From: Oscillospiraceae bacterium
GTDB lineage: Bacteria; Bacillota; Clostridia; Oscillospirales; Oscillospiraceae
Assembly: GCA_015068125.1 (NCBI GenBank)
Contig: SVLD01000007.1
Location: 1 to 64,000, forward strand
Direction of reading: 5' to 3'
Length of the DNA stretch: 64,000 bases
A program made the translations under genes and the position numbers. This document shows, piece after piece, positions 1,923-60,286 of this stretch; the stretch's first letter is position 1; every line of letters begins with the position of its first letter. The notes beneath the pieces are model-generated. The model had not been told where the DNA came from and did no database searches. It worked only from the letters and a program-made list of their open reading frames with translations.

Positions 1923-4900
1923 TTATTTGACTGCCACAAACCGGCCGATATGGAAGAAGTACAGCAAAGACTGCTTGATGGGCAGACCGTAGATGCGGCT
2001 CAGGGCATCGCCGTAGGCCAGCACCTGAGGGCGGTAGAATTCCGTTCGCTGCGGTAAGGTACTTTCCGTGACGGCATCGGTTTTGAAATCCAGAATGGTA
2101 ATTCCGTCATCTTCGATGAGTGCGCAGTCCACAACGCCCTGGAGCAGAATCTGCTCACCGGAGAGCTCCGGAGAGAAGTTCGCTCCATCGTCCAGAACGG
2201 AGAATTTAAACTCCCGCAGGACATTCCCACTTTCCCGCAACTTGCCGCCCAATTCTGTGGCGAAGAATGCCGCGATTGCCTGGCAATCCACCATTTGCGC
2301 CTGTTCCTCGCTGATGAAGCGCTGCTCTGTCAGGCGCTGCACTTCCTGCCGGACGCCGGCAAGGCTATGGCAGGCATCATAGCGGATGTACTGCATGGCG
2401 CTGTGCATGGCATTTCCCACATCCACCGCAGAGGTGCGTTCCCTACCAAAGACCGCTTTCCGCCACTTCCGGTAGATGGGCTTGGGCTCCTGGGTGTCCT
2501 CCGCGACTTCCGCATCCTTATCCCGACCTTTTCGCTGGGTAGCCGTCTGCTTGGAGGGAGCAAAGGTTGCGGGGACATGGTCGTATCGGAACGCCAACCC
2601 TTTGCGGATTTTCTCCAGAACCGCCTCCGGCAGCACTTCCGCCGGAACTTCCGGTTCTTCGGCGCAGGTTGCATCTGTGCCGCCAGCAGACATCACCCGA
2701 ATGCACCAGGCTGGCTCACCGGGTTTGGTTTCCACAGGCTTACCGCCCAATCGGAACAGCTCCCCTGCCTCGGTTCGCTGCAGAGCAGTCATCAGCACCC
2801 ACTGGCCGGGACAAACCACATCCCGGGTCAGTAGTTCTCTGCCTCCCAGATCCATCCGCAGGGCAATGTCGGCTATGTCATTTTCCAGATTCCGATCGGC
2901 ATAGGTCATGATCAGCCGGTCTCTGGCACGGGTCAATGCCACATACAGCACCCGAAGTTCTTCTGATAAGCTGTCTGCCGTCATTTTTACGGCAATTGCC
3001 TTTTTGGCAATGGTGGGATACCGCAGGCGGTTCTTTTCGTCCACCGCAGACAGTCCCAGTCCCAGATCCTGGTCGCAAAGCACCTGCGCTCTGGTGTTTT
3101 CCCGGTTGAACTCCCGGGACAAACCCGCCACGACCACCACAGGAAATTCCAAGCCCTTGGACTTGTGGATACTCATCATGGTCACCGCGCCGGGGGCGGT
3201 CTGCTCACCGGCGGCGATAAGCCCCTTGTCCTCCATAGCCGTCAAATGCTCCAAAAACTGCTCTAAATCCCGATGGCCGGCAGCTTCAAAGGACACAGCC
3301 AGATCATAGAAGGTCTGCAGGTTTTCCCGCCGTGCCGAGCCGTCCTCCATAGCGGCATAGACATTGTCCATCCGGGTCAAGGCAAAGATCCGCTGGATCA
3401 GGGATGCCAGAGATTGCAGCCGGGCTTCCCGGCGGAGGATCTTCAAGGTTTGCACAAACTCCGCTGCTTTCGGCAGCTCCGAAGCTGCCAAAGCATCGTA
3501 GATGCTGCCAAAGGGGCGCTCTGCACGGATCACCGCCAGGTCATCGGCGGTAAATCCGAAGACTGGGCTTGCCAGGGTGGCAACCAGGGGAATATCCTGC
3601 CGGGGATTGCTGATGGTCTGCAGCAAGGAACGCAGCACCGCAATCTCACCGGTTTGCAGCAGGTCCTCACCGCCGCCGCTGACGCAGCGGATTCCCCGCT
3701 GGGCAAGGGCCGCCCGATAGTGACCGCCCACAGAGCCGGGAGATCGAAGCAGGATCGCCACATCCTCCGGGCGGATAGCGTGCAGTTCGTCCTTCTGGCG
3801 GATAAAATGCTTACCGTCCAGCAACTGCGCAATACGCTGGGCCACCATCTGGGCTTCTTCCTCATAGGTATTATCCTCTGCTTGCAGGGTCAGCAGCTCC
3901 ACCTCGGGCTCACCCAAAGATTGATGGGGAATGCCCTCCCGGAGGCGTTCTTCCGCGCCATAGACCAAACCGCCCACGGCTTCGGACATGCAGTACGCGA
4001 ACACATCGTTAACGCCCTCCAGCACAGCACCACCGGAACGGAAGTTGTGGGACAGGACGACCTTGCGCCCCTGCCCCGGCTGGGCTTCCTCCGCAGGCAC
4101 ATACCGGGCGTATTTGTCAAGGAAAATGCCGGGGTCAGCCAGGCGGAACTGGTAGATGGACTGCTTCACATCTCCCACCATAAAACAATTGTTCCGCTGG
4201 GCTGTCAGGGCTTCAAAAATGGCATCCTGCACCGCGTTGGAGTCCTGATATTCGTCTACCATGATCTCCCGGAAGCGGCTGCCGATCTCCTTTGCGGCGG
4301 CAGTGATGCCGCTGCGGGAAACACCCAGAAGCAGATCCAATGTTTTATGCTCCAGATCACCGAAATCCAGTACCCGGCGGCTTTTTTTGACCTTTTGGTA
4401 GCTGTCGGAGAATCTGCGCACCAGCGCCGCCATTCCCCGGACAGCGCGGGCAGATTGTCCCATATCTGCAAAGACCCGGTCACTGGTATCGGCGAAGCTC
4501 CGAAGCTTCTTTTCCAGACCCTTTTTGCAGGCGTTGCGGACAGCTTTGATCCGTTCCGTCAGCTCCGCATCCGCATTTTTGGGGAAACGGAGAGAGCCAT
4601 AGTCAATATCCTTATGAGAAACGATCCGGTCCCACTGCTCACAGCTTCGAAGTGTATACAGCTGATTCACAGTGTCCGCCAGCAGAGCTGCCGGCTTTTC
4701 CATGCCCTCAGCTTCCGCTGCTGCCTGGGCGCAGCTTTCCATGGCCCGGATCTGCAGATCCAGATAATCCATCAGATCCTTGATAAGATATGCGCCCCAA
4801 ACCGTCTGGGAGGCGTCCTGCAAGCCTTCCACCTGGGAATTGTTCACGCAACCGTCCAACCAAGTATCCGGAGATAAATGGCACCGGGCGCTGTCAAAGA

Positions 4901-5438
4901 CCTTGAGCAAGATCTCCGGCACCAGCCGATCGTTCCGTCCCAACCCCTGGGAGTCCACAAAGGCCCGGAAATCGCCGTCTTCCTGGGCATTTTCATAGGC
5001 ACTGTCCAGCAGCCGGGTCATGCAGGTATCCCGCATCTGGCGGCATTCATTTTCATCCGCTACCCGGAAATCCGCCGGCACATCCAGTTTGTAGGCATAC
5101 TCCCGGAGGATATCTGCGCAGAAGGCGTGGACGGTGGATATCTTCGCCAGGTAAAGCCGCTGCATCTGCCGCTGCAGGTGCCGGTTATCCGGTTGCTGCG
5201 CCAGATGCTCTGTGAGCTTGGCGGCAATCTTGCCGCGAAGCTCCGCCGCGGCGGCTTTGGTATAGGTAATGATGAGGAAATCATCCAGGTTGGCAGGATC
5301 CACAGGGTCCATCACATAGCGCATCAGCCGATCCACCAGAACCTTGGTCTTACCGGAGCCGGCGGCAGCGGAAACCAACAGCTTACCGCCACGGTCATAT
5401 ACCGCCTGCTTTTGCTGATCGGTTAACTGCTCAGCCAT
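1923..5438 (-). CDS. addA: ATP-dependent helicase/nuclease subunit A (AddA)
   Basis: UvrD-type helicase motifs (SAAAGSGKTKVLVDR, VDEYQDSN) and C-terminal nuclease. Confidence 0.95.
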   Translation of the reverse strand: MAEQLTDQQKQAVYDRGGKLLVSAAAGSGKTKVLVDRLMRYVMDPVDPANLDDFLIITYTKAAAAELRGKIAAKLTEHLAQQPDNRHLQRQMQRLYLAKISTVHAFCADILREYAYKLDVPADFRVADENECRQMRDTCMTRLLDSAYENAQEDGDFRAFVDSQGLGRNDRLVPEILLKVFDSARCHLSPDTWLDGCVNNSQVEGLQDASQTVWGAYLIKDLMDYLDLQIRAMESCAQAAAEAEGMEKPAALLADTVNQLYTLRSCEQWDRIVSHKDIDYGSLRFPKNADAELTERIKAVRNACKKGLEKKLRSFADTSDRVFADMGQSARAVRGMAALVRRFSDSYQKVKKSRRVLDFGDLEHKTLDLLLGVSRSGITAAAKEIGSRFREIMVDEYQDSNAVQDAIFEALTAQRNNCFMVGDVKQSIYQFRLADPGIFLDKYARYVPAEEAQPGQGRKVVLSHNFRSGGAVLEGVNDVFAYCMSEAVGGLVYGAEERLREGIPHQSLGEPEVELLTLQAEDNTYEEEAQMVAQRIAQLLDGKHFIRQKDELHAIRPEDVAILLRSPGSVGGHYRAALAQRGIRCVSGGGEDLLQTGEIAVLRSLLQTISNPRQDIPLVATLASPVFGFTADDLAVIRAERPFGSIYDALAASELPKAAEFVQTLKILRREARLQSLASLIQRIFALTRMDNVYAAMEDGSARRENLQTFYDLAVSFEAAGHRDLEQFLEHLTAMEDKGLIAAGEQTAPGAVTMMSIHKSKGLEFPVVVVAGLSREFNRENTRAQVLCDQDLGLGLSAVDEKNRLRYPTIAKKAIAVKMTADSLSEELRVLYVALTRARDRLIMTYADRNLENDIADIALRMDLGGRELLTRDVVCPGQWVLMTALQRTEAGELFRLGGKPVETKPGEPAWCIRVMSAGGTDATCAEEPEVPAEVLPEAVLEKIRKGLAFRYDHVPATFAPSKQTATQRKGRDKDAEVAEDTQEPKPIYRKWRKAVFGRERTSAVDVGNAMHSAMQYIRYDACHSLAGVRQEVQRLTEQRFISEEQAQMVDCQAIAAFFATELGGKLRESGNVLREFKFSVLDDGANFSPELSGEQILLQGVVDCALIEDDGITILDFKTDAVTESTLPQRTEFYRPQVLAYGDALSRIYGLPIKQSLLYFFHIGRFVAVK

Positions 5439-8400
5439 GGGACACCTCCTTCTCCACTTCCTCCCAGAATCGCTGGGCAGTCATGGTCTTGTAATTCCGT
5501 CGGCCTGCTTCCGCCGTATCCTGGCACACCGCCTTATAGGGGCAGTAGGCACAGGCACTGTGGGCAGTGCCACGGGTATAGGGATTGGGCTCTACATTTC
5601 CGGAGGCGATCTCCTCCACCATGTTCCCCAGCCAGGCAAAGACGTACTGCCGCAGCAGCTTCAGCTGCTGGCGGTCCGCCAGATCGCCGGAAAGGCTGCC
5701 GTCCTTTTTCCGGCTGCAGCACAGCCGACTCATGCTGTCCCCGGGTTCCATAGCCTGCAGAACTTCCTCATCCTGCAGAAGTAAGCCCTTGCGCTTCCAC
5801 TCTTTCACTCTGGCGGCTTCAGCTTCCGTATCCGTCATGGCGCCGTCGGCGCTCATCAACGGGGCTCTTGCAGGGAAATACTGCACACCGGCAGCAATGG
5901 GCTTGCCGCCCAAAACCGTCTCTCCCCCCTGCTCCAAAGCGAACAGGTACAGAAGCATCTGCAATCCCACGCCGTTGAATACATCGCAGTAATCGAAATC
6001 CTTTTTGCCTGTCTTATAGTCCACCACCCGGAAGTAGTGGTTGCCGTTGTGTTTCCAGATATCCACCCGGTCTACGAAACCCCGGAGGATCGCGGCCATG
6101 GAAGAAGACGGCACTTCAATGGCGGGCATTTTTCCATCCTCGCCAAAGGCAAGCTCAAAATCCTCCGGCAGAAATTGGGACTGCCGCAGCTCCTGCCACA
6201 GTTCCGTGACCACCATTTCCAGTTCCCGTCTGTTCCGGTGGAACAAATAAGTCAGCCGGGCAGAATCGATCTGGCTGAATTTTTCCTTTGCATAGGCTTC
6301 GGAGTGTGCCATGGCAATATCCATGGTCTGCTCCAGGGAAACCTCCCCGAAGCCGCCCTTTTCCATCACATCCCGGGCGGTATGCTCCAACACCCAATGG
6401 ACATAAGTACCGAACTCCGCCGGGTCTACCGTGGCCTCTTTGCGTTCCTTGGCCCGGATGCCATACTTCAGGAAGTAGGACAACCGGCACTCTGCCTGGC
6501 GATCTACCTGAGAAGCGGACAGGTTCAGGCACTGTCCGTACAGCGCCCGGACATTTTCCCGTTGGATATTGCCCAGGACGTAATTAGCCCTAATTTGGGT
6601 TTGGGTATATTCCTCCCCTACCCCCAAAGCCTGGGCAATATTTTCAACCTTCCGGGCTGCCAGCCATGCGCCGGCTTCCGCCGGATTCGCAGATGCCGTC
6701 ACCGCTGTGCTTTGCATATATTGTTCGCCGCCGGCCATCTCTGCCAGCCGGCGATATACATACGAGGGTTGCGCCGAGGAGCACAGCACCGTAGCCGTTT
6801 CCTCCGCGCCGCAAAATACACCGAAAATATCCGCAAATTCCGCCTGCAAGCCCTCTACCGCACCGCCGGTAAGGGGCACGCCCAAATCCCGGAGTTGCGT
6901 CCGCTCCTGGTCTGTCAGCAAGCCCGTGGAGCCGCCGTAACCCGGCAGACTGCCTTCCTCAGCACCCAGCAGAATCAGGTGCTTCTGCTGCTGACAGCGC
7001 ATGGCGTCCACCTGACCCACAGTCACCGCATCCAGCACCGGAGGGATCGTGCCCACATCATACTGGCTTAAAAGCAGGGTCAGCAGCCGGACAAAAACCT
7101 CCGGCTCCCAAACCGTTTTGCCCAGGACATCGTGAAGCTGCTCCAGGGCAGTCAGCAGAATTTCCCAAAGCTGATTTAAGATCTGGGCGCTGCGGTTATC
7201 CTTCTGGGCATCCATAGCCTCGGCCAGCTTACCTAGCCGATCTGCCAGACGGATTTCCTCCAAGAAGGCGTACAGCGCCTCCACCTGTCCTGCCAGATCC
7301 CGGGCATTTTGGAAGCCCAGATACAGTCGACGCAAAGGCTCCACGGCCTTTTCCCGGGCATCGTTCAGCCGCTGCAGCCGGCGGTCTGTGGATTCCGTCC
7401 ACTTTTCGCTCAAACCTCCGGGGTTCTTCGTCCATGCGGTCAGCCACTGCTTGCCCCGGACACCCCAGGTAATGGCGTAATTCTCCACCAGGTCGCAGGT
7501 ATCGGCATCCAGTGGCGACAGGGCGCTGCGCAAATAGCGCACCACATCCTGCTGCTCAAAGCCACCCAGGGCGGCTTCCAGCGCCGACAGCACGGTGCTC
7601 AGGACGCATTTTTGCAGAATTTCTTCTTTGCCTGCCCGGTAAGTCGGAATGCCGCAGCGGTGGAAGATCAGATCGATGACATCGGCATAGGCTGCCATAT
7701 TGGCGCAAACAATGCTGATATCCCGATAGCGGCAGCCTCCCTGCACCAGTTCCATGACCCGCTGGGCCGCCAGTTCCACCTCTGCCCACAAGCCATCTGC
7801 CCGCCATACCTGCAGGGCTTCGTCCGCCTTGGGAATCGCCCCCTGGAACAGCGCCATGCTGCAGTCAAACAGAGCGGATTCTCTGCCGGGCAGAATTTCA
7901 ATTTTTACTTCCACGCCGGCATTTTTCGCGCAGCGGAGAATTTGCGCCGCAGTATCACCGGCCTTTTCAAAAGCCAGTCGAGGAGAGGATACGCAGTCAC
8001 AGTTCAAGCCCACGGTCACATTGGGGCTGGTGCGGATCAAATGCTCCAAAATTGCCAGATTCTGCCGGGTAAAATCCGGGAAGCCGTCTATGTAGAACAC
8101 ATGCTCCTGACCAAAAGTGCCCCCCTCCAGCTGCTCCAGCAGCCAGGTCATCTGATCTCTGGGATCCCGCTTGCCCTGGGCGCAAAGGCCGTCGTAGCCA
8201 TCCAGCAGCAGCGAAAGCTCCTCCAGCTTCTGCGCCAGAGAGCCCTCGGTCTGCTCTGATGCGGCTTGCAGATCCCGGGCGGTAATGCAGCAGCGCTTGA
8301 ACTCATCCACCGCATCCACCAGCTCCGTCAAAAATTCCGGCTTGGTTTCCACAGCGGCATAAGCCTTCAGTCGGCTGTGAAGCTGCCGGGCCGTGGCAGC

Positions 8401-50149: not shown

Positions 50150-51265
50150 TCAGCCTGCAACCTCGGCGACCAGGGAGAAGGCCTTGTCGTCAGTCAGGGT
50201 ACCCTCCTGACAGGTGTATCCAGCGTAGACCAGTTTGGACTTCTTGACCACCCTGTCGTGCTCGATCATCACGGGAACGACCACGTTCTGCAGGTACTTC
50301 TTCGGGTCGCCGATCAGCAGCTCGTTGTCGCCCACGGCGTCCTCGAATTTGATAGTAGCGCCCAGGATAGCGCCGGCAGCCTTCTCGGTGATGGCGCCCA
50401 TGAAGATGGGACGCTTATTGCTGTCCACCATGCCGACCAGCTTGTTGTAGACGCCCTTACGGGTGCCGTATACCACGACGGTGCCGACGCGCTTCAGTTC
50501 ACCGAAGCCGGCGCAGATGTTGGCGTAGTTAACGCCAGTCTGGATCTTGTTGGCAGCCGCCATCTTTTCCTTGATCTCTGCCACGATGCCGACGGCCAGC
50601 TTAGAACCGATACGCGCGGCGACCAGGGTGATCAGGTAGTCCTCGAAAGCGTCAATCGCCATTGCTGCCATCTTGTAGGACAACTCCACATCTGCGGTGT
50701 AGTCCTCACCGGACAGATCGATGTTAGACATAGTGACCTGCAGATCGTTGTGATCCTCACCCTCTGCCGTCTTGCCAGCATCTGCTACGATGCTCTTGGC
50801 CGCAGGGATGGAGATGGCGCAGCCAGAGTTCAGAGTGTAAACGTCGGCGACGATGGGGTGTTCCTCGCCGATCAGGTCGATGATGCGGTTCTGCATCTGG
50901 GTGGGCAGAGGTGCGGAGGTGTTGGTGGTCAGAAAGGTGAAAGCGCGCTGCTCGATCTCGGTCAGTTCCTCGCCGCGCAGACGCTTCAGGAAGGCGCTGC
51001 GATACTCTTCGGATGCGGGGGTGAAAGTGCGGTTTTCCATGTTGTTTTCCTCCTCGTGGTTGTGGGTTTCGGTGGCGGTGCCTACCAGGCCGACGGCGAT
51101 ATTAGCACGCAGCTGCTGTCTGGTCTGGACTTCGCTCTGGATGCGGGTGCGCTCGGCGATCAGGTTGTTGGTCTCCTGCTCCAGGGCGGTCAGTGCATCG
51201 CCTTCGGCGGTCTCCAGTTCAGTCTGGATCTCAGCCAGGCGGGTGTTGATTTCGTCAATTCTCAT
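50150..51265 (-). CDS. HK97-type phage major capsid protein
   Basis: N-terminal coiled-coil delta domain; SEEYRSAFLKRLRGEELTEIEQRAF; start re-placed to 51265 with upstream AGGAGGT. Confidence 0.9.
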   Translation of the reverse strand: MRIDEINTRLAEIQTELETAEGDALTALEQETNNLIAERTRIQSEVQTRQQLRANIAVGLVGTATETHNHEEENNMENRTFTPASEEYRSAFLKRLRGEELTEIEQRAFTFLTTNTSAPLPTQMQNRIIDLIGEEHPIVADVYTLNSGCAISIPAAKSIVADAGKTAEGEDHNDLQVTMSNIDLSGEDYTADVELSYKMAAMAIDAFEDYLITLVAARIGSKLAVGIVAEIKEKMAAANKIQTGVNYANICAGFGELKRVGTVVVYGTRKGVYNKLVGMVDSNKRPIFMGAITEKAAGAILGATIKFEDAVGDNELLIGDPKKYLQNVVVPVMIEHDRVVKKSKLVYAGYTCQEGTLTDDKAFSLVAEVAG

Positions 51266-51890
51266 GGGTGACGACCTCCTGTAATTTAATCTTGAGACGC
51301 AAGCGTCTGCGTCTCTCTTCAAGCTCTGCCTCACTCCGGGCTGCCAGGTCGATCACTCCGTCGACCCAGCTGCGAGCATTGATTTCGGTGTTTGGGTTGG
51401 CCGGGATAGATACAGCCGAGACGTCGAAGATCTTCTTGATCTTTGTGTGGACGATGGTCCGGGTGGCGCTGTCGTAGTGGTACTCGCCCACGATGAAGCC
51501 CCAGGACATCTTGGTGATCATGCCGGTGCTGATCTCTTCATAGAGGCGCCGGGCGGCCTCGGTGCGGCCGAGATCTGCAGCGGTTATCAGGCCGACCGCA
51601 TCAGCCTCCACGATCAGGGAACCGTTGCTTTGCCGAGCCATGACGGTGCCGCAGTGGTTCAGCTGGAAGATGATGTCGCTCATATCGCAGCCATCAAAAC
51701 AGCCAGGCTCGAAGCGCTCATAGATTGGGCCGTCCTCCATCTCATAAAGGACATAGGGCTCATAGCGAGCTGCATAGCCCTCGACGTAATAATTGGAGTC
51801 GATCCGCTTTTGCTCCGGAGCGGGTGCGAAAACCTGAAGCGCACGGATCTGGCGCTCATTCTTCAGTTTGTTCTTGGTTTCCGGTGTCAT
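51255..51890 (-). CDS. HK97 family prohead protease
   Basis: VEGYAARYEPY...ERFEPGCFDGCDMSDIIFQLNHCGTVMAR; start re-placed to 51890. Confidence 0.9.
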   Translation of the reverse strand: MTPETKNKLKNERQIRALQVFAPAPEQKRIDSNYYVEGYAARYEPYVLYEMEDGPIYERFEPGCFDGCDMSDIIFQLNHCGTVMARQSNGSLIVEADAVGLITAADLGRTEAARRLYEEISTGMITKMSWGFIVGEYHYDSATRTIVHTKIKKIFDVSAVSIPANPNTEINARSWVDGVIDLAARSEAELEERRRRLRLKIKLQEVVTHEN

Positions 51891-57347: not shown

Positions 57348-57487
57348 ACCTCCTCTGGCAATAGCTCCTCGGCATCTGCCTGCTCCATGCATTGCACGCA
57401 ACTCTTGCCATTCTTTTCACAATCAGCCTGCTGATGCTCTGAAACCTGCTCAAGTGGACAATCCCACCATTTACAATAAAACGCCAT
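57344..57487 (-). CDS. 47-aa Cys-rich protein overlapping RT 3' end
   Basis: MAFYCKWWDCPLEQVSEHQQADCEKNGKSCVQCMEQADAEELLPEEV; RBS TTAGGAGG inside RT codons; absent from ORF track (<60 aa). Confidence 0.65.
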   Translation of the reverse strand: MAFYCKWWDCPLEQVSEHQQADCEKNGKSCVQCMEQADAEELLPEEV

Positions 57488-58520
57488 TATTATTTCCTCC
57501 TAAAATTTGATTTATCTTCAGATCCATCGTCTTGCCCAGGTGGTAGCAATTACCATGGGACCGGTGGTTTTGGTGTGCAGCATAGGAATGATCCAGCTTT
57601 TCCTGCGGCAGCTTACCCGCTACCACCAGTTTTGCCATGCGGGTATATTTCTTCTGGGCATTGCGTTTCTTTTGGTTGCTCAATTTGCGGATTGGTGTTC
57701 CATCTGCAGTTATGTAGGTATGAAAGCCCAGATAGCTGACGCCGTTCTTGAAGGGGAAGATCTGCGTCTTTTCGTTCAGTTCCAGATCCAGGGTTTCCAG
57801 ATACGCTGTGATCACCTCCAGGCAGTGCTGCAGATACGCCTTGCTCGGGTGGATCAGCCAAAAGTCGTCCACGTACCTGCCGTAATACTCAATTCCCAGC
57901 TGGTGGACGATCAGTTTGTCCATGCCGTCCAGATAGATAAGGCCAAATGCCTGGCTGATCTGGTTTCCCAGGGGAACTCCTTTTCCCTCGGTGCTGTCAA
58001 TGAACAGATCGCAGAGCCAGCAGATGTCCGGGTCATATCCGAAGTGATAATGGACGATATCCTTCAGCTGCTCATGGGATATGCTGTAGAAGAATTTCCG
58101 GACATCGCATTTGAGGATGTACCCCTCCATGCCGTACCGGCTGTAAAACGCCTGCATCTGCTCGCTGAGCCGGTCAAGCCCGAATAACGTTCCTTTTCCT
58201 TTCTGCCCGGCGCAGTTATCGTGGATGAAGATCTTCTGCAGCCGGGGCAGCAGCACATTGTCACACAGGCTATGCTGTACGACCTTATCCTTGAAGGAGG
58301 AAGTTTGGATAATACGCTCCTTGGGCTCGTACACCTTAAACTCAGCATAGCCGGAGACCCGGTAGGTCTTATCCTTCAGCTGAGCGATCAAGGTGTTTAC
58401 GCCATCCAGCGCGACCAGGTTAAACCGGGCGGCGCTTTTCTTATTGCCCTTGCCGCACTTTGCTTTACGGAAAGCCCGGTACATATTATGAAAATCCGTT
58501 ACCTTCTCGAAGTCGGTCAT
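57471..58520 (-). CDS. DGR reverse transcriptase
   Basis: RT motifs GYILKCDVRKFFYSI, PLGNQISQAFGLIYLDGMD (GxxxSQ, DGR hallmark), YYGRYVDDFWLI (YVDD); adjacent TR and Avd. Confidence 0.95.
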   Translation of the reverse strand: MTDFEKVTDFHNMYRAFRKAKCGKGNKKSAARFNLVALDGVNTLIAQLKDKTYRVSGYAEFKVYEPKERIIQTSSFKDKVVQHSLCDNVLLPRLQKIFIHDNCAGQKGKGTLFGLDRLSEQMQAFYSRYGMEGYILKCDVRKFFYSISHEQLKDIVHYHFGYDPDICWLCDLFIDSTEGKGVPLGNQISQAFGLIYLDGMDKLIVHQLGIEYYGRYVDDFWLIHPSKAYLQHCLEVITAYLETLDLELNEKTQIFPFKNGVSYLGFHTYITADGTPIRKLSNQKKRNAQKKYTRMAKLVVAGKLPQEKLDHSYAAHQNHRSHGNCYHLGKTMDLKINQILGGNNNGVLL

Positions 58521-58720
58521 ACAGCGTAGCCCTCCTTGTTTATCCTTTCGGAAAGGTTGTGCGTTCTTTTGGTGTGGCGTATGGATTTCGGCTGATGCCT
58601 ACTCTGTCGAACATTCCACCAGTACGGGCGCACCGCGTAGTCGTTGTTGTAGTTGTTGTTGTTGTTGTAGCCGGACGGCGCAACGCAAAAAGGAAAAATA
58701 CAACGCACAGCCTGCGGCAC
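58521..58720 (-). ncRNA. DGR TR-containing RNA region (TR plus spacer to RT)
   Basis: Non-coding interval between avd stop and RT start containing TR. Confidence 0.65.
58624..58689 (-). repeat. DGR template repeat (TR), 66 nt
   Basis: TTTGCGTTGCGCCGTCCGGCTACAACAACAACAACAACTACAACAACGACTACGCGGTGCGCCCGT; A-rich core; matches VR1 and VR2. Confidence 0.95.
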
Positions 58721-59089
58721 TTATTTCTGCTCGCTTTTTCGCCAGCCAAGTGCCATATACTTTACATCCGTCACCATCCTTGACCAGTACTCCGCCGACT
58801 TATCATTCAGCAGCTCCAGCATCATGGACAGCTCGATGTAAAACAACAGTTCGTCGCAGAGGGTGACCGCCCGGGTAATCATCTCGCACCGTTCCCGCTT
58901 GTGGGTCACATTGTGGATGCGGTTCGCTTCCAGCAGGTTTTCATAGATATCCATGCTCTTGTTCTGCATACGGTCAACCAGGGAATGGCGGAACTTTTTG
59001 GGATATCGGTTGCAGTTGGATGTCAGTTTGAAAGTATGTACCGCCAGGTCTTTTGCCTTGACGATCACCTTCAGGTCATTCTCTGCCAT
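58721..59089 (-). CDS. avd: DGR accessory variability determinant (Avd, four-helix bundle)
   Basis: LKVIVKAKDLAVHTFKLTSNCNRYPKKFRHSLVDRMQNKSMDIYENLLEANRI...; position between target and TR/RT. Confidence 0.88.
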   Translation of the reverse strand: MAENDLKVIVKAKDLAVHTFKLTSNCNRYPKKFRHSLVDRMQNKSMDIYENLLEANRIHNVTHKRERCEMITRAVTLCDELLFYIELSMMLELLNDKSAEYWSRMVTDVKYMALGWRKSEQK

Positions 59090-59092
59090 GTC

Positions 59093-59662
59093 TTACTCCT
59101 CGGAAGATTCAAAGATAGAAGAATTGAAGATCAAAAACGGGCGCACCGCGTAGCCGTCGCTGAAGTGGCTGTAGTCGCTGCTGTAGCCGGACGGCGCAAC
59201 GCAAACAATCCACCAGGGATTATCGTGGGGCTGGGCAGATTCCGGGGTAGCAGACCACCACCATTCATCCACCGGGTACTTGTCGAAGATCTCCACATTC
59301 TCCCGGTAGAAGTCAAAGGTAGGCAGGCTGATCTTGGATTCCATCGCGCCGTAGGGCTTCAGGCCGTCCAGGGTGGTGAGGTCAGTTTCGAAGGTCAGGA
59401 CGTTTTCCTCGCCGATCGCTTCGATGATCTTAGGCAGGATATCCTTCTGCATTTTCTTCAGCGCATCACTGCTGCGCAGATCGTTGTTGTCGCCAAACCG
59501 GGAACGGAACGCCACACCACGCATGACCACCGGGGTCTTGCCGTTTACGCTGGGGAACTTGATAAACTCCATGCCGGCGATCTGGAATGTTTCGCCATCC
59601 TTTACGCCGGGGAAGCCGGTTACCTTGGGGTAAGCTGTTGCCGTGGTTTCTGTGGTTTTCAT
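59093..59662 (-). CDS. DGR target protein 1, C-terminal CLec-like fold with VR1
   Basis: CVAPSGYSSDYSHFSDGYAVRPFLIF C-terminus; VR1 within; paralogous to 59678-60286. Confidence 0.9.
   Translation of the reverse strand: MKTTETTATAYPKVTGFPGVKDGETFQIAGMEFIKFPSVNGKTPVVMRGVAFRSRFGDNNDLRSSDALKKMQKDILPKIIEAIGEENVLTFETDLTTLDGLKPYGAMESKISLPTFDFYRENVEIFDKYPVDEWWWSATPESAQPHDNPWWIVCVAPSGYSSDYSHFSDGYAVRPFLIFNSSIFESSEE
59137..59205 (-). repeat. DGR variable repeat VR1, 69 nt
   Basis: Identical flanks to TR; 10 core substitutions, all at TR A positions after a 3-nt gap. Confidence 0.93.
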
Positions 59663-59677
59663 TGTTATTTCCTCCTT

Positions 59678-60286
59678 TTATGCAGATACAAAGATATCAG
59701 ATTTTAAGATACAAAACGGGCGCACCGCGTAGACGAAGTAGTAGTCGCAGTGGTGGCTGTTGTAGCCGGACGGGGCAACGCATTTTACCCAGTCATCATC
59801 ATCGTGGGTAGGTGTGCTGAAGGCAGTAGCCAGCCACTCCCAAATATCCAGCTTGTACTTATCCAGGATCTCCACATACTTGCGCTGCATCTGGGCGGTA
59901 CGCAGGGATGCCTTGCGCTGGATAACGCCATAGTCCTTCAGGCCGTCGTCCGCCGTCAGATCTACCTCGTGGATAAGGATGTTATCCTCACCGACAATGT
60001 CGGCGAGCTCGTCGGCAAACTCGTTGCAGACTGCATCCGCATCCGAGCCGTCGTAATTGTTGTTCTTGCCAAAGGCCATCTTCTTCAACGGATCCTTCCG
60101 CAGCAGCAGGGTGCCCTCACCGATGTGATCCAGCACGATCATTTCATGGCTGCCGAGCATGACGGTACCGCCCGCCACCGCGTCGCCGAGGCGAAGGCCC
60201 TTTTCCTGGAAGCTGGCCGTGATCTGTGCGACCTGCTCCGGGGTCAGCTCAATCTTCTGACCGTTGATTACGATGTAGTTGTTCAT
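59678..60286 (-). CDS. DGR target protein 2, C-terminal CLec-like fold with VR2
   Basis: CVAPSGYNSHHCDYYFVYAVRPFCIL C-terminus; VR2 within. Confidence 0.9.
   Translation of the reverse strand: MNNYIVINGQKIELTPEQVAQITASFQEKGLRLGDAVAGGTVMLGSHEMIVLDHIGEGTLLLRKDPLKKMAFGKNNNYDGSDADAVCNEFADELADIVGEDNILIHEVDLTADDGLKDYGVIQRKASLRTAQMQRKYVEILDKYKLDIWEWLATAFSTPTHDDDDWVKCVAPSGYNSHHCDYYFVYAVRPFCILKSDIFVSA
59716..59782 (-). repeat. DGR variable repeat VR2, 67 nt
   Basis: 10 core substitutions, all at TR A positions after a 3-nt gap; one silent G->C flank difference (GCG->GCC). Confidence 0.92.

Follow-up and report, generated by a model that had tools for sequence, protein, structure and literature searches.

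A prophage DGR from an Oscillospiraceae bacterium whose template repeat is one codon shorter than both of its variable repeats

Introduction

In the usual description, DGRs alter residues whose positions are fixed. In experiments with the DGR of Bordetella phage BPP-1 (mtd/avd/TR/brt), the length of the template repeat (TR) is copied into the variable repeat (VR), and a TR with positions 23-96 swapped for a 30-bp tag still homes (PMC3240598). Likewise, 18 nt missing from a target have been restored out of the TR (PMC12875486). Unlu et al. (2026; PMC12875486) note that slippage was proposed by Wu et al. (2018; NAR gkx1150) as the source of AAC-repeat indels whose length is a multiple of three.

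Here, we analyse a DGR in a window of 64,000 nucleotides from an Oscillospiraceae bacterium (contig SVLD01000007.1). Like the BPP-1 DGR, it combines a target, predicted to be lectin-like, that carries a C-terminal VR with avd, a TR and a reverse transcriptase (RT), and its repeats differ in an adenine-specific manner. Unlike BPP-1, it has two small targets of unassigned role adjoining the RT, a TR of only about 66 nt and a natural one-codon length difference between TR and VRs. The step resembles those of Wu et al. in being a multiple of three inside an AAC repeat; it differs from those cases, as far as the account in PMC12875486 goes, in being common to both VRs of one cassette, which points at the TR. 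The original prediction held that a change in TR length is not a standard feature of described DGRs, a view not supported in the light of the codon-step AAC indels that PMC12875486 already ascribes to Wu et al.

Organization of the DGR cassette

The window contig belongs to a draft genome (MAG) of 1.58 Mb in 40 contigs. A prophage occupies the right end of the window, with an HK97-type major capsid gene at 50150-51334 (minus strand) and the portal and large terminase genes near it on the same strand. The DGR, which also lies on the minus strand, is complete, with two target genes, avd, TR and RT:

57471..58520, minus strand: DGR reverse transcriptase, 349 aa, intact; Pfam RVT_1 (1.3e-15); PHROG 1423 reverse transcriptase (4e-104); motifs LGNQISQ and YVDD
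58624..58689, minus strand: TR, variable core of 30 nt
58653..58667, minus strand: (AAC)5 run of the TR, site of the one-codon gap relative to both VRs (gap-placement alignment)
58721..59089, minus strand: avd accessory gene, 122 aa; PHROG 3206 "Avd protein of DGR" (1.3e-24); NCBIfam DivGenRetAVD (7e-11, under the family cut-off)
59093..59662, minus strand: target gene 2, 189 aa, VR at the C-terminus; PHROG 9958, unknown function (7e-28)
59137..59205, minus strand: VR2, variable core of 33 nt; 8 adenine differences and 0 others
59678..60286, minus strand: target gene 1, 202 aa, VR at the C-terminus; PHROG 9958 (1e-30); predicted C-type-lectin-like fold
59716..59782, minus strand: VR1, variable core of 33 nt; 8 adenine differences and 1 synonymous difference in the flank

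A DGR-type RT is one that we take to be defined by the (I/V/L)GxxxSQ motif together with YxDD, and the RT of the window has PLGNQISQ and YVDD. Avd and TR/VR differences at TR adenines are also present (8 of 8 in VR2 and 8 of 9 in VR1, a 3-nt gap being allowed). Within its clade of about 50 RTs, the window RT alone has YVDD in place of YMDD or FMDD, and it alone has GNQISQA in place of GNQINQG or near variants. Its residues 181-220 carry five substitutions relative to the closest relative, L046, in the stretch GVPLGNQISQAFGLIYLDG. In reverse transcriptases, both motifs lie at the catalytic site, and an RT with such unusual active-site motifs might slip more. The share of mutated adenines in the window VRs is 0.44, at the low end of the range of the listed relatives (0.36-0.80) yet inside it. 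In L131, another clade member, TR and VRs have the same length, and the pattern [YF]xDD[FW] was not found in the RT (4001-5020).

The AlphaFold model of target 1 (pLDDT 93.3, pTM 0.83) places the variable residues 175-186 in a C-terminal strand-turn-strand. The best viral fold matches include DUF6273 phage proteins, with E values down to 3e-9. Fold matches in the PDB are weak and mostly C-type lectin domains, among them the C-terminal domain of Legionella Lcl (probability 0.98, E 0.013); a sequence search of the PDB gave no match.

Length difference between the TR and both VRs

On the plus strand, the distance from GCGTAG to CCGG is 30 nt in the TR (58641-58670) and 33 nt in both VR2 (from 59154) and VR1 (from 59733), so that equal length of TR and VR, a usual feature of DGRs, is absent here. 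On the minus strand, the codons read as follows:

TR: GGC-TAC-(AAC)5-TAC-AAC-AAC-GAC-TAC-GCG
VR1: GGC-TAC-AAC-AGC-CAC-CAC-TGC-GAC-TAC-TAC-TTC-GTC-TAC-GCG
VR2: GGC-TAC-AGC-AGC-GAC-TAC-AGC-CAC-TTC-AGC-GAC-GGC-TAC-GCG

The TR core comprises 10 triplets and both VR cores comprise 11, matching a TR with six AACs rather than five. When a 3-nt gap was slid through the TR (minus strand, core from GGCTAC to GTGCGCCCG), non-adenine mismatches fell to zero at the same 18 gap positions for VR1 and VR2 and nowhere else. These positions are the (AAC)5 run and the AC of the preceding TAC, and the 3-nt step can thus be placed inside the AAC run for both VRs. The best ungapped fit, anchored on the right, leaves 3 non-adenine mismatches; left-anchored fits leave 11-12. 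If the ten VR codons are treated as random NNC triplets, a one-codon-gap fit is expected by chance with p=0.16 for one VR and about 0.02 for both. The adenine-only gapped fit is real but on its own not overwhelming. The count of 30 against 33 nt is independent of this fit, because the flanks fix it.

The original prediction had the repeat coordinates, the three lengths and the failure of ungapped alignment right, every ungapped placement having at least 3 non-adenine mismatches. Its claim of a perfect adenine-only alignment with a gap in the AAC run applies to the core and to the whole of VR2 but not to the whole of VR1, in which a G to C difference outside the core, at about 59774, is synonymous (GCG/GCC). 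Remote VRs of 30 nt and any further TR or VR copies were absent from the whole MAG, which holds only the three known copies.

An extra codon common to both VRs could also have arisen if one target had served to convert the other by a route independent of the DGR, since the two targets are paralogous and share the repeat. VR1 and VR2, however, differ from each other at most template adenines, where they have been changed differently, and the target lines have diverged (target 1 shares only 35% identity with L046 target 2). With such different adenine patterns and diverged targets, no conversion tract is visible, and conversion is highly improbable.

Length differences among relatives

RT relatives were gathered, and each locus was scanned for TR/VR pairs by alignment, with mismatches at template adenines left unpenalized. 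The sample comprises 116 loci with 148 TR/VR pairs of at most 3 non-adenine mismatches each; exact duplicates were dropped, and some near-duplicates remain. MAGs of ruminant-gut Clostridia and Oscillospiraceae, together with IMG/VR contigs, supplied the nearest RT relatives. In phage records (INPHARED), DNA similarity was weak and partial only. Prophage DGRs of Clostridia and Oscillospiraceae (L046, L042, L130, L043 and L152) share with the window the layout of targets, TR and RT, have homologous targets and are 73-88% identical in the RT. They differ from it in that TR and VRs are equal in length (L046, L042), one VR is longer by 3 nt (L130, L043) or the single VR found is longer by 3 nt (L152).

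Whole-codon length differences between TR and VR occur in 11 of the 116 loci and 12 of the 148 pairs, the window included:

VR +3 nt: window VR1, window VR2, L043, L130, L152, L177, L098, L175
VR +9 nt: L038
VR -3 nt: L197, L181
VR -6 nt: L063

Equal TR and VR length is usual in DGRs but no strict criterion. L175, L177, L197 and L043 are weaker cases, with 2-3 non-adenine mismatches as well. Such differences were present in 1 of 3 loci with an AAC run of at least 5 and in 10 of 103 with shorter runs, counts too small to relate run length to mismatch. Gapped matches in L070, L185, L192, L145, L104 and L105 were left uncounted because their gaps lie at or past the repeat edge, and a -6 TR polymorphism between L032 and L034 (RT identity 98%) was discounted because a contig end cuts the TR.

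Alignment-supported gaps that break the target ORF were tallied separately from the whole-codon cases. Relative to the TR, the VR of L072 (7679-7800) has a 1-nt deletion and that of L060 (7682-7799) a 4-nt deletion, and both targets are out of frame; these VRs are possibly failed homing products or sequence errors. The L120 locus lacks VRs, avd and TR, and near 5439 (reverse complement of G076:C32) the N-terminal part of a target gene leads directly into the RT from about residue 23, which reflects either a deletion of the DGR core or an assembly collapse.

Over 31 loci placed on an RT tree, the TR core has 11 or 12 codons and VR lengths almost always equal that of their own TR. The two TR lengths are interspersed, with at least 8 length changes, an approximate number because many branches are weakly supported. 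These observations indicate that, over longer times, TRs gain or lose whole codons and VRs follow. TR length is unchanged in all 14 pairs of near-identical phages with RTs at least 99% identical. The original suggestion of a slowly evolving axis in TR length is borne out in this weak sense. The sister locus L046 (support 99/99) has a TR of 12 codons and two VRs of 12, which speaks for a contraction in the window, but its TR is arranged differently round the tyrosine codon and is accordingly not a direct ancestor of the window TR.

VR length can also change while the TR stays constant, a possibility that the original prediction missed. The RTs of L037 and L038 are 99.7% identical and their TRs do not differ; the VR of L037 equals the TR in length and that of L038 is 9 nt longer (L037 7484-7583 against L038 7484-7592). 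The 9 extra bases repeat the TR unit AACACGAAC in frame and depart from it at adenines only. This insertion is a natural snapshot of a VR length change, probably one made during homing.

Origin of the length difference

Loss of one AAC unit from the TR after the last homing into both VRs is the probable explanation. Both VRs share the +3 step and its placement and differ from the TR, which points to the TR as the altered copy. Among the 30 loci with two VRs, both are off by a codon in the window only. At the per-VR +3 rate of 3/58, our arithmetic predicts about 0.08 loci in 30 that would have gained 3 nt twice independently, which is a factor and no proof. Whole-codon TR changes in relatives also agree with this reading, which the original prediction had put forward and which is the best supported. 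No sequenced (AAC)6 allele of the window TR was found among the relatives collected, which counts against it.

The main rival explanation places slippage at homing. The TR would always have had (AAC)5, and the RT would have slipped back by one triplet in both homing events, or selection would have kept longer loops, so that each VR gained a codon. Such slippage does seem to occur in relatives: the L037/L038 pair, which like the unusual motifs of the window RT counts against contraction, shows a change in the VR only, the VR is longer in 9 of the 12 mismatched pairs and shorter in 3, and slippage of AAC triplets has been proposed (Wu et al. 2018, as cited in PMC12875486). L043, L130, L177 and L197 each have one VR off and one equal to the TR, which points to a change in the VR or to a change of the TR between two homing events. 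For the window, however, this explanation requires that a single locus gained the same length twice, independently, at a per-VR rate of only about 5-7% in two-VR loci, and we consider it doubtful.

An error of assembly or sequencing would leave the true TR with (AAC)6 and the triplet lost in the metagenome assembly. The source is a draft genome in 40 contigs. The only other record of the window TR, IMGVR_UViG_3300022660_000179 (L002/L089/L128), is 100% identical over 13.7 kb; it may come from the same sample, and probably from the same data, and was not accepted as an independent copy. Against such an error, a run of 15-18 nt is far below the length of reads or assembly k-mers, the TR adenines are otherwise intact and the TR is hence no TR/VR chimera, and codon-step differences also occur in independent assemblies of relatives. 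An error is unlikely as the cause of the short TR, and we give it only a slight probability.

If the TR has contracted, the last homing into each target would have used an (AAC)6 template, and the AAC run would have lost one unit by replication slippage thereafter. The TR is no homing target itself, so its length is inherited and rarely altered, and the next rewriting would reset each target to the length of the TR. Since the VR takes over the length of the TR in the BPP-1 experiments, it can be soundly inferred that a future homing from the short TR would delete one target residue. In the lectin-like target, the variable hairpin would shorten from 12 to 11 residues (G to A/GVRP). Judging from the sequences of relatives, in which both lengths are common, the loss of one residue from the loop should be tolerated. 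The window element is likely to be a prophage DGR of the ordinary kind, seen midway between two states.

Conclusions

Codon-step length variation is a real and largely explained kind of variation and involves no new mechanism. The present case contributes a cassette whose two targets both point to the template as the altered copy, and it shows how frequent codon steps are among the relatives of one RT. DGR finders that demand ungapped TR/VR matches will miss or truncate codon-step pairs; DiGReF, for instance, requires every non-adenine base to match exactly (PMC3521204).

In the window and 10 relatives, loop length varies by whole codons at two levels, the heritable template and single targets, and is thereby open to testing as a second source of diversity. 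We tentatively suggest that the AAC microsatellite of the TR may act as a heritable length dial, in which slow codon steps would fix loop length in every target of a cassette simultaneously and slippage of the RT would add faster excursions in individual targets, reset by the next homing. If this were true, DGRs would explore loop length besides residue identity, as antibody loops do.
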